The translations under genes and the position numbers were made by a program. A DNA stretch of 64,000 nucleotides from Thermococcus sibiricus MM 739. Lineage in GTDB: Archaea > Methanobacteriota_B > Thermococci > Thermococcales > Thermococcaceae. The stretch lies in NCBI RefSeq assembly GCF_000022545.1, contig NC_012883.1, positions 124,001 through 188,000 of the forward strand. Direction: 5' to 3'. The notes below the pieces were generated by a model. It was not told where the DNA came from and ran no database searches. It saw nothing but the letters and a program-made list of their open reading frames with translations. The stretch's first letter is position 1; each line of letters begins with the position of its first letter. Shown in pieces: positions 36,478 through 40,856 of the stretch.

Positions 36478-37504
36478 GGTTGAGAACATTAGCAAAAACT
36501 GGGGGGAATTTAAGCTCCACGATATTACCTTTGAAGTGAAAAACAGAGAGTATTTGATAATTTTAGGCCCAAGTGGTGCTGGAAAGACACTTCTACTTGA
36601 GCTCATTGCTGGAATTTTTGTTCCGGATTCTGGAAGAATTTTCATGAATGGCAATGATATAACATTTTTGCCGCCTGAAAAGAGAAAATTAGCTTATATC
36701 CCTCAGAACTATGCTCTCTTTCCGCACATGAAAGTCTACGATAATATAGCTTACGGATTAAAGCTGAAAAAAATTCCAAAGAATGAAATTGACAAAAAAG
36801 TTAAGGAAATTGGAGAAATCCTTGGAATTTCTCACCTCCTGCACAGAAAACCAAAAACATTGAGTGGTGGGGAGGCTCAAAGAGTTGCCATTGCAAGGGC
36901 CTTGGTTTTGGAGCCGAAACTTCTTCTTCTTGATGAACCATTTGCAAACCTGGATATTCAAACTAGATCTAAGCTTATTCAAGAAATGAAATACTGGCAT
37001 AAGGAGCTAAATTTTACGGCTCTTCACGTGACCCATTCCTTTGAGGAGGCAGTAAGCTTGGGAGATAGAGTAGGGGTTATGTTGAATGGAAAATTAATTC
37101 AAACTGGAGAAGTTAGAGAAGTATTTGGAAGGCCGAAAAATGAAGAAGTGGCAAAATTCCTCGGCTTTGAGAATATAATTGAGGGAATTGGAGAGGGGAG
37201 AGTTTTGAAGACTAATGGCATTTTAATTGAACTTCCCATAGAGGTCAAAGGAAAAGTTAGAATTGGTATAAGGCCGGAAGACATCATAATATCAAGTGAA
37301 CCTATAAAAAGTTCTGCAAGAAATGAATTCAAAGCTAAAGTTCTGGCGGTTGAGGATCTGGGATCCTTAGTAAGACTGACTCTTGATATTGGAGGAATCG
37401 AGCTCAGGGCATTTATAACCCGCTCATCCCTTCTTGAGATGGAAATTAAGGAGGATAAAGAGGTTTATCTAAGCTTTAAAGCAACGGCGATTCATGTCTT
37501 CTAA
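36470..37504 (+). CDS. wtpC: Tungstate ABC transporter ATP-binding protein
   Basis: The 344-residue ATPase. Walker A GPSGAGKT at 33-40, Q-loop [11 protein letters not shown], signature [16 protein letters not shown], Walker [13 protein letters not shown] and H-loop VTHSFEEA are complete. After residue 235 a C-terminal TOBE-like domain ([10 protein letters not shown] onward) may sense intracellular oxyanion, as in ModC. The ATG at 36470 lies within the wtpB end and follows GGGGAGGTC. Confidence 0.93.
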
Positions 37505-37553
37505 TGGATACAAGCATACTTAGGTGCATTTATTTGTCTTTTAGGAATATTTT

Positions 37554-37584
37554 CTTTATATATAGCAAGTCTTTTATATGCTAT
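37554..37584 (+). promoter_or_regulatory. Promoter of the truncated permease, with small inverted repeat
   Basis: A TATA element (CTTTATATATA, from 37554) is followed by ATAGCA at 37562-37567 mirrored by TGCTAT at 37579-37584. The arms are only six bases, so a regulatory role is a weak suggestion. Confidence 0.35.
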
Positions 37585-37610
37585 GAATTTCTTTCACAAT
37601 TGGTGGGAAC

Positions 37611-38219
37611 ATGAAGAGGTTAACATTGGCTGAAGCAAGTGCAATGCTCATAGGAACTCAAATTGGAGCGGGTGTTTTGGGATTGCCGTATGCATTGAGG
37701 GGAGCAGGTTTCTTGGAGTTTTTGTGGTTATTGAATCTGGGGTTGATGACACTTTTAACTGCTCTCTTTGTCCTTGAAGTTGCTTCCAAGAACCTAGGAA
37801 AGAGCCTTTCAAAGCTCACCGAGGAACATTTGGGAAAGATGGGTGGAGTTGTGATGTTCTTGAGCATTTCTGCTTTAGCCTATGGGGCTCTTATAGCGTA
37901 TATAGCTGGAAGTGCTGATATTATATCATCCTTAGTTGGCATTAGGCCCGAGATTGCGGCCATTGTCTTTTGGAGTTTAATGAGCCTGATAGTTTTTATG
38001 GGACTTAAGGTTTCTGGAGAGGCAGAACTAACTCTTACGGGGGTCCTCCTTTTAGCCCTTGTACTTTCAATAAGTCTTGTTTTAGGTAAGATTAATGAGA
38101 AGAATTTAACCCATCGGGTGAGAAGTCCCCTTCCGAAAGGGCAGGGTAGTTCACTCTTCTCTGTGGTTTTTCTGTTAATATTTAATTTTGTATCGATAAA
38201 TAATTTGGTTCGAAAATAG
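37611..38219 (+). pseudogene. Truncated amino acid permease (HAAAP/tryptophan-tyrosine type)
   Basis: The first 166 or so residues are a normal amino acid permease start: LIGTQIGAGVLGLPYALRGAGF gives the unwound substrate helix TM1 of the aromatic/hydroxy amino acid permease family, and four or five helices follow up to LVLGKINEKNLTHR. Members are usually near 380-410 residues. Here the frame then runs through an IS200/IS605-like end (VRSPLPKGQGSS) and stops at 38219, so over half of the protein is missing. GGTGGGAAC precedes the ATG. The gene is almost certainly non-functional. Confidence 0.8.
38111..38154 (+). mobile_element. IS200/IS605-family right-end relic
   Basis: The segment begins CCATCGGGTGAGAAG, folds CCCTT/AAGGG into a hairpin, and ends GCAGGGTAGTTCAC. 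Hairpin followed by GGGTAGTTCAC is the signature I know from the ends of IS200/IS605 elements, where it also forms the 3' part of the TnpB guide RNA. No tnpA or tnpB gene is near, and the permease is interrupted exactly at its left side, so an element inserted and was then deleted apart from this end. Confidence 0.55.
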
Positions 38220-38264
38220 AATCAAAATTTTTAAAGTTCGCCTATGTAAGATAGATGAGGAGTC

Positions 38265-40856
38265 ATGATAAGGTTTGCTACCAGGGAATACAGCGATGAT
38301 GAAATTTATGCTATACTGGATGAACCTATTAGAGAATGGTTTAAACGGAAATTTGGAACATTTACACCCCCCCAGAGATATGCAGTTGTTGAGATTCACA
38401 AGGGGGAGAATGTTCTTATATCTTCACCAACGGGTAGTGGGAAAACTTTATCCGCTTTTCTCGCCGCCATAAATGAGCTTGTTCTTCTGGGAAAAGAAGG
38501 TAAGCTTGAAGACAAGATTTACGTTCTCTATGTATCTCCACTTAGGGCCTTGAACAATGATATAAGGAGGAACCTTGATGAGCCGTTGAGTGAGATAAGA
38601 CAAATTTATAAGGAACTGGGCTATGAGCTTCCAGAAATAAGGGTTGCAGTGAGGACAAGTGACACATCAAGCTATAAAAAGCAGAAAATGGTAAAAAAGC
38701 CACCTCATATTTTGATAACAACTCCCGAAAGCTTGGCTATAGCTCTAAATGCTCCCAAGTTCAGTCAGAGGTTAAAAACAGTCAAATATGTTATCGTTGA
38801 TGAGGTCCACGCTTTAGCTGAGAACAAGAGAGGGACTCATTTGGCTCTGAGTTTAGAACGGCTCCAAAATCTGGCTGGTGATTTTGTTAGAATTGGCTTA
38901 AGCGCAACGATACACCCTCTAGAAGAAGTTGCTAAATTTGTTTTTGGCTTTAATGATGATGGTACTCCTCGTTCCGGTTTAGTTGTAGATGTTAGCTTTG
39001 CAAAGCAGACTGAAATCAAAGTTGAGAGCGTGGTGGAAGACTTAATCTATGCCCCAGCTAATGAGCTGAGTGGGGCTCTATATAAACGCTTGGATGAACT
39101 TATAGAGCAGCATAGAACAACGTTAATATTTACAAACACGAGGAGCGGGGCTGAAAGGGTTGCATATCACCTTAAGAAAAAGTATCCTAAATATGCGGAA
39201 TTAATTGAAACTCACCATTCGAGCCTTTCTAGGGACGTTAGGCTTGAAGTAGAGGAGAAATTGAAGAGAGGAGAGTTGAAATCAGTGATCAGCTCAACCA
39301 GTTTGGAGCTCGGGATTGACATAGGCACAATAGATTTGGTTGTCCTCATTGGCTCACCAAAGAGTGTTAATAGAGCACTTCAAAGAATCGGAAGGGCAGG
39401 TCATAGGTTGCATGAGGTAAGTAGGGGGATAATCCTCGTTTTGGATAGGGATGATTTGGTGGAATGTGCTGTTTTAGCACATAATGCAAGAAGTAGGAGG
39501 CTTGACAGGATTAAAATTCCCCAAAATCCACTGGATGTCCTTGTGCAACATGTGCTTGGGATAGCTCTGGAAAGGGTGTGGGATATAAATGAAGCATACA
39601 ACCTTGTTAGAAGGGCATATCCATATCGTAATTTAAGCTTTGATGACTTTGTGAGTGTTTTACGTTACTTGGCTGGCGAATATGCAGGTTTGGAAGAGAA
39701 GAAAGTCTATGCAAAGGTCTGGTTTGATGAAGAAGAAGGGAAATTTGGTAGAAGGGGCAAAATGACACGGGCCATCTACTATATGAACACCGGGACAATC
39801 CCAGATGAGGCAAAAATCGAAGTTTTTACCCTTGATAAGCATTTTATTGGAACTGTTGAAGAAGAATTTGCAGAAAGATTAATGCCGGGGGATATTTTTG
39901 TTCTGTCTGGCAGAACCTACGAATTTAAAAAATCAAGAGCGAATAGAGTTTATGTTCAGCCAAAGGAAGGAGCAAAGCCAACAATTCCAGCATGGTTTTC
40001 TGAAATGCTGCCCTTAAGTTTTGACCTAGCTTTGGACGTGCAGCGTTTTAGAAGAGAGGTTAAGGCCCTTCTAAGCAGTAAAAGAGCAAAGTCGCTTCTC
40101 ATAAGAAAGTACAAAATTGATGAAAAGGCCGCAAGGGCCATTTTGGGGTATTTTAGAGAACAGGAGAGGTATTCAACTATCCCAGATGACGAACTTCTTC
40201 TTGTTGAGGGGATCTTTGATGAAAGGAGAGTTAAATACTTCTTCCACACACTGATAGGGAGAAGGGCCAATGAAGCTTTGAGCAGGGCCTTTGCCTACAT
40301 CATCAGCAAAAAGAAGAAAACGAATGTTGGAATAGCAATAAGTGATAACGGGTTCATGCTTATCCTTCCTAAGGAAAAGATCTTAAACGAGGAAGAAATT
40401 AGGGAGCTATTTCAGATTGAGAATGTGAGGGAAACCTTAAAGAGAGCATTGGACAATACAGAGCTTTTAAAGAGACGTTTCAGGCATGTAGCAAACAGAG
40501 GTTTGCTTATTCTTAGAAGATATATGGGGAGAAAGAAGAGCTTAAGCAGACAGCAGTTAAATGCACAAACTCTCTTGAGGCTTTTGAAGAAAAACTACCC
40601 AGATTTTCCACTTTTGAAAGAAGTTTACAGGGAGATAATGGAGGATAAGATGGATATAGAGAATGCAGAACTCTTCTTGAGCTGGGTTAAGGAAGGAAAG
40701 ATAAAAGTGGTGGTAGAGCATAATGAATTGCCCTCGCCTTTTGCCTTTAATCTTGAAGTGATTGGAGCTAGTGATGTTGTGCTGATGGAGGACAGAAGGG
40801 AGCTTATCAAACAGCTGCACAGCAAAATCATGAAGCTAATAGGGGAAAAGGTTTAA
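38265..40856 (+). CDS. Lhr-type ATP-dependent helicase
   Basis: A superfamily 2 DNA helicase of the large helicase-related (Lhr) family, implicated in archaeal DNA repair. In 863 residues it has Walker A SPTGSGKT at 54-61, the DEVH box at 179-182, GLSATIHPLE as motif III, TNTRSGAERVA as motif IV and IGRAGHR as motif VI, then the winged-helix and Lhr-core beta domains (CAVLAHNARSRRLDRIKIP). The length is that of the Lhr core without the C-terminal extension of bacterial forms. It starts 45 bases after the permease relic with its own TTTTTAAAG promoter. Confidence 0.93.
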   Translation: MIRFATREYSDDEIYAILDEPIREWFKRKFGTFTPPQRYAVVEIHKGENVLISSPTGSGKTLSAFLAAINELVLLGKEGKLEDKIYVLYVSPLRALNNDIRRNLDEPLSEIRQIYKELGYELPEIRVAVRTSDTSSYKKQKMVKKPPHILITTPESLAIALNAPKFSQRLKTVKYVIVDEVHALAENKRGTHLALSLERLQNLAGDFVRIGLSATIHPLEEVAKFVFGFNDDGTPRSGLVVDVSFAKQTEIKVESVVEDLIYAPANELSGALYKRLDELIEQHRTTLIFTNTRSGAERVAYHLKKKYPKYAELIETHHSSLSRDVRLEVEEKLKRGELKSVISSTSLELGIDIGTIDLVVLIGSPKSVNRALQRIGRAGHRLHEVSRGIILVLDRDDLVECAVLAHNARSRRLDRIKIPQNPLDVLVQHVLGIALERVWDINEAYNLVRRAYPYRNLSFDDFVSVLRYLAGEYAGLEEKKVYAKVWFDEEEGKFGRRGKMTRAIYYMNTGTIPDEAKIEVFTLDKHFIGTVEEEFAERLMPGDIFVLSGRTYEFKKSRANRVYVQPKEGAKPTIPAWFSEMLPLSFDLALDVQRFRREVKALLSSKRAKSLLIRKYKIDEKAARAILGYFREQERYSTIPDDELLLVEGIFDERRVKYFFHTLIGRRANEALSRAFAYIISKKKKTNVGIAISDNGFMLILPKEKILNEEEIRELFQIENVRETLKRALDNTELLKRRFRHVANRGLLILRRYMGRKKSLSRQQLNAQTLLRLLKKNYPDFPLLKEVYREIMEDKMDIENAELFLSWVKEGKIKVVVEHNELPSPFAFNLEVIGASDVVLMEDRRELIKQLHSKIMKLIGEKV

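Follow-up and report, generated by a model that had tools for sequence, protein, structure and literature searches.

The window, a 64,000-nt stretch of the Thermococcus sibiricus MM 739 genome (a single contig of 1,845,800 bases, designated G000), contains a tryptophan/tyrosine permease gene whose 3' part has been replaced by a 45-nt terminal-only relic of an IS200/IS605-family element. By its likeness to sister sites, the relic appears to be a left-end hairpin fused to a right terminus with the core of the element lost; it is of an ordinary kind, without evident function. A Thermococcales member of this family would have landed at the permease locus, and on arrival or afterwards about 623 nt of host DNA would have gone between a TTTAA in the gene and a TTTTTTAG past it; the left and right hairpins form imperfect direct repeats, and recombination or slippage between them would have removed the core and left the relic. 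We consider this course of landing, two-motif host deletion and core loss probable, the order of events and a role of TnpA in the deletion being its inferred parts.

The permease gene and its 45-nt insert

The open reading frame at 37,611–38,219 (+ strand) encodes the N-terminal half of the permease, matching positions 8–175 of the 393-position PF03222 profile (E 6.6e-20) rather than the full-length domain, and the amino acid permease named in the first-pass annotation is thereby confirmed. The 5' remnant is 499 nt long (37,611–38,109, + strand), and its last 300 nt are 96.7% identical to the whole gene of the relative G010 (1110 nt, 369 aa), whereas the next 45 nt to the right of 38,109 share only 27% identity with that gene; permease homology thus halts exactly at the left border of the relic. 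The frame was thought to end there as well, but it crosses the element and runs on for about 21 extra codons to 38,219, forming a hybrid of 202 aa. All 13 genus genomes searched (G000 counted in) have a permease match, and in 11 of them the frame at the best match is at least 377 codons long, the exceptions being G000 and G009. What is left of the permease gene is most likely a pseudogene. The G009 gene carries a separate internal deletion at an 11-nt repeat, GGGCAGGATTT, which is present twice in the whole gene of G010, and a search of 36,600–39,600 against Rfam found no family at E values up to 1.

The relic occupies 38,110–38,154 (+ strand) and is preceded by a TTTAA landing motif (38,105–38,109, + strand) that is native to the permease, with AATTTAACC at the same spot in the whole G010 gene. 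Within it lies an imperfect hairpin of left-end type, CCCCTTCC GAAA GGGCAGGG (38,127–38,146, + strand), followed by the right terminus TAGTTCAC (38,147–38,154, + strand), whose TAG is the tnpB stop codon in full-length copies. A hairpin had been reported here, and it is present; however, its stem of eight pairs includes two mismatches and one G–T pair, and as single-stranded DNA it is weak (-4.8 kcal/mol, z -0.27). No tnpA or tnpB is left in these 45 nt, as had been noted.

To the right of the relic is intergenic DNA (38,155–38,264, + strand), 102 of whose 110 nt are identical to G009, where this DNA follows TTTTTTAG 12 nt past the permease stop. Because the left flank corresponds to G010 and the right flank to G009, the 45 nt replace about 623 nt of host DNA, namely the 3' 611 nt of the permease and 12 nt past its stop, the gene length being taken from G010 and the spacing from G009. 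The suspected tie between the element and the missing permease half is therefore borne out, and the whole gene in G010 is free of the 45-nt segment. The borders come from these two comparisons; an alignment of the left flank to G009 obtained with joined flanks is spurious, since the corresponding stretch of the permease is missing from G009. Two other placements were rejected: the right flank is not the permease C-terminus, as G009 shows intergenic DNA past the stop, and a left border at TYAT|CGGG is ruled out by the empty site of a sister copy (L105), which sets it at TTTAA|C.

Element family and host DNA lost at solo sites

A 27-nt pattern of the element end, allowing up to three mismatches, occurs nine times in G000 and is present in 10 of the 13 genus genomes, with no occurrence of a reversed-pattern control in any of them. 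The search for tnpB genes sharing this right end, proposed in the first-pass annotation, found that tnpB genes at 276 kb and 795 kb finish in the motif at their 3' ends, with a more diverged copy at 652 kb, and in all three the tnpB stop TAG lies inside GGGGTAGTTCAC. The left end, taken from two 99.6%-identical tnpB copies, shows TTTAT, then a tip and a hairpin closely resembling that of the solos, as we call short units of the kind seen in the window. These two 1398-nt copies (L018 and L019, at about 651 kb and 795 kb in G000) have their tnpB breaks in common, and the element therefore seems to have moved once its tnpB was already broken.

Several features place the lineage in the IS200/IS605 family. 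In G003 and G005, a Y1 (HUH) TnpA and a TnpB precede the matching right end; the tnpA genes beside it match PF01797, that of G003 being a 169-codon frame without a stop and that of G005 having one in-frame TAA, while the window copy has none. Full copies have hairpins near both ends, and the window copy keeps one, weakly stable. The empty sites of sister copies (TTTTAA|TAGGG and TTTAT|GGTT) place the insertion point immediately 3' of a TTTAA or TTTAT, with no target duplication, TTTTAA being the proven target of L105. They show past movement of the lineage; at the window, the deletion prevents a simple empty site from being seen. Excerpts of PMC5934647 describe IS608-type elements as inserting 3' of a motif that is kept in the left flank and as having subterminal hairpins and an HUH (Y1) TnpA; the elements here share with IS608 short sequences 5' of the hairpins, but the IS608 motif is TTAC rather than TTTAA or TTTAT, and the copy in the window is reduced to a single hairpin without genes. 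Judged by its tip, the window copy belongs to the TTTAA subfamily, of which no long copy was found in G000 with one 140-nt scaffold query from a G009 copy. The sole Y1 TnpA of G000 is part of an element with another right end. At the permease neighbourhood in other genomes, G005 has a long IS605 element upstream of the permease, between it and an ABC gene (L249), and G010 a remnant with a different right end past the permease gene (L035).

The joined flanks of solos were compared with the corresponding loci of relatives. Among 19 solos, 12 are simple or near-simple insertions (5 nt or less; L105, L107, L109, L112, L113, L124, L125, L128, L130, L136, L137 and L141, the last placed here on a weak alignment and repeated in another genome as L142), six are gapped, i.e. 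they replace host DNA (the window, L106, L108, L123, L127 and L139), and one is unclear (L126). A further 13 were not placed on both sides and are uncounted (L110, L111, L114–L116, L118, L119, L131–L134, L138 and L140); at L138 and L140 the left flank is in place elsewhere and the right is not, at L131 the reverse holds, and losses to either side are therefore possible at these three. No clear rightward loss is seen at any of the 19, with those 13 unplaced. One unplaced solo, L133 (G003, 388,200–389,300), adjoins repeated 30-nt units resembling a CRISPR array.

All six gaps end at the border of the element, and at four of these sites both edges are copies of a landing motif native in a relative. 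In addition to the window (623 nt, between TTTAA in G010 and TTTTTTAG in G009), these are L108 (1,220.27 kb in G000), where 73 nt lie between TTTTAT and TTTTTAT in G009, the 3' part of them alignable in G006, G003 and G011; L139 (in G009), with edges TTTTTTAT and CTTTTTAT in G006, to which G003 and G011 correspond less exactly, around 257–258 nt that hold an open frame on the other strand; and L123 (in G011), where G003 and G006 (compared as L294 and L295) agree in having TATAA and TTTAA as edges around 963 nt with an ABC-type ATPase frame, named by sequence. The pattern is incomplete at the other two: about 69 nt are lost at L106, where the right edge is clear and the left edge is TTTCA in G000 and G010 and TTTAA in G009, and L127 is ambiguous, with 19 nt missing relative to G003 and 223 relative to G006. 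A strict TTTAA or TTTAT stands at the left edge at three of the six sites, i.e. the window, L108 and L139 (compared with G006, not with G003 or G011), and the left edge of L123 is TATAA. The probability of motif edges at four or more of six sites is 1e-8 to 1e-5 for assumed motif frequencies of 0.0055–0.03, a post hoc figure that is indicative only.

The motif edges at four of the six gaps suggest a transposase-driven insertion-deletion between two target motifs. TnpA would join the element ends to two motifs, or re-join the left end to an upstream motif, with deletion as the outcome, and this would be the simplest common account of the gapped solos. As a property of the TnpA of this IS605 lineage, such coupling of insertion to deletion is a proposal we hold tentatively: the right-hand motif at the window is TTTTTTAG in G009, not TTTAA or TTTAT, the pattern fails to be complete at L106 and L127, and no intermediate for the window locus was found.

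Two other histories would yield the same edges. Elements of this family could have inserted twice, at the TTTAA in the permease and again past the gene, and the left hairpin of the first could then have recombined with the right hairpin of the second to give both the deletion and the solo, so that a single known process, repeat-mediated deletion, accounts for both edges, and the locus does attract such elements, as G005 and G010 illustrate; yet paired insertions 73–963 nt apart would be needed at 4 of the 19 sites, and a model search of ten loci of relatives at gapped sites found no element copy (two 8.8-bit matches, E 0.33, are at chance level). We regard it as unlikely. Also improbable is an insertion past the permease, with unrelated slippage between short TTTAA-like repeats joining the left border to the gene. 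The motif copies are indeed direct repeats of 4–6 nt, and the separate permease deletion in G009 lies between 11-nt repeats, but plain slippage leaves unexplained that all six gapped deletions stop at the element border.

If TnpA does couple insertion to deletion, these relics would mark repeated deletions of host genes (the permease here, the ABC-type ATPase frame in G011 and part of a coding stretch in G009). The alignment of deletion edges with the landing motif gives a hint of how genes next to such elements can be destroyed. Should the two-motif signature be made by the transposase, single-strand transposases would have one more means of remodelling genomes. By title or abstract, none of the papers listed in one open library dealt with IS605 relics with two-motif deletions in Thermococcales.

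Sister sites and loss of the core

Two loci are found in empty, long-ended and solo states in different genomes. At the 408.2 kb site, G009 is empty (with 4 extra nt), G000 has a solo, and G010 has left and right ends; at the 83.1 kb site, G003, G006 and G011 are empty, G000 has a solo, and G009 has both ends. In both G009 and G010 the two ends lie on different contigs, from which the long form is inferred, and comparisons with these two genomes call for caution, as both look like metagenome assemblies. The 83.1 kb solo follows the G009 left end through the hairpin, with the exception of one of 36 nt, and then changes to TAGTTCAC. Because a long-ended form in one relative stands against a solo in another, core loss accounts for the solos at both loci, each of which has the single hairpin that core deletion between repeated ends leaves in terminal-only PATEs. 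Compared in sequence, such solos consist of the left-end hairpin joined to the final 8 nt of the right end. The first-pass annotation of a solo IS200/IS605 right end was thus correct as to the family and the relic state, and is amended by the sister sites to a fusion of left end and right end.

The hairpins of 34 units, typed by eye and being the higher-scoring among the matches listed rather than a full census, comprise 18 of left type, seven of right type behind a left tip, three mixed and six unclassified, and the crossover point differs among solos. Such variation is what recombination or slippage between hairpins that repeat each other imperfectly would give. That the 45-nt solo is itself a mobile unit inserted as such is distinctly less credible. 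In favour of it, the solo keeps the left junction and the right terminus, relatives have empty sites for several solos, and the idea has been raised for 52-bp PATEs (PMC3119063); against it, the long-ended and solo states at the two loci are explained by core loss, and the solos differ in crossover point.

Core loss has a precedent in Haloquadratum walsbyi, where the portions of PMC3119063 available describe terminal-only PATEs as IS605-type remnants of about 50 bp with a single palindrome, formed by repeat-mediated core deletion, and report sites that have the long form in one strain and the short form in another, as do the two sister loci here. The relic resembles these in its single hairpin and in core loss by recombination or slippage of repeated ends; the relics here differ in their length of 40–45 nt, in their archaeal lineage and sequences, in their variable crossover points, and in the replacement at some sites of host DNA between landing motifs, which those portions do not describe. 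A PATE-like IS605 remnant of Halanaerobium hydrogeniformans, given in excerpts of PMC7290912 as about 271 nt with a partial tnpB and a full right end, is likewise an ends-only derivative, and the window relic, at 45 nt, is shorter. Short IS605-like hairpins in archaeal genomes can therefore be core-deleted relics, comparable to solo LTRs.

Guide-RNA potential of the relic and of other loci

The relic was tempting to read as a right end that might guide TnpB, and the proposal that its transcript serves a TnpB in trans as guide RNA is almost certainly wrong. It does keep the last bases adjoining the place where a guide would start, and G000 does have tnpB genes that share this end. The structured omega RNA scaffold expected 5' of the right end is, however, absent at the relic: when three scaffolds were aligned to the window, no more than 22–33 nt at their termini matched there, the locus is missing from a genome-wide search with a 131-nt scaffold at E<=1e-6, and of the TTTAA-subfamily scaffold only the last 35 nt, the common tip, matched anywhere in G000. 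A strong fold (z -6.31) is predicted for the scaffold that precedes a full right end, whereas the fold of the relic is insignificant. None of the three G000 tnpB genes with this end (tnpB with a recognisable C-terminal domain) is a single open frame, so that an intact partner TnpB with a matching end is lacking. With the scaffold absent, the fold insignificant and the tnpB copies broken, the sequence makes a guide-RNA role for the relic very unlikely.

Other loci would be better guide-RNA candidates than the relic. Three units in G000, at about 1,603.3, 513.8 and 1,824.9 kb (L238, 1,602,900–1,604,400; L239, 512,700–514,400; L240, 1,824,500–1,825,300), have no room for tnpB, and further such loci are found in G010 (L241–L243 and L248), G009 (L244–L246) and G003 (L247). 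By description, these omega-RNA-only loci, and not the window relic, resemble the sRk48/sRk52 class of Pyrococcus abyssi; according to the available parts of PMC3124441, sRk48/sRk52 and sRkB/sRkC are expressed RNAs that have promoters and are akin to the 3' end of orfB/tnpB, and T. sibiricus has two sRk48/52-like copies, whereas the 45-nt relic has neither promoter nor scaffold. The omega-RNA-only units look like mobile, promoter-bearing, guide-RNA-only elements: each is about 160–280 nt long and consists of a left end, a TTTAAATA box, a complete omega-RNA-like scaffold and a right end, and in 8 of the 11 units the box lies 207–209 nt from the right terminus.
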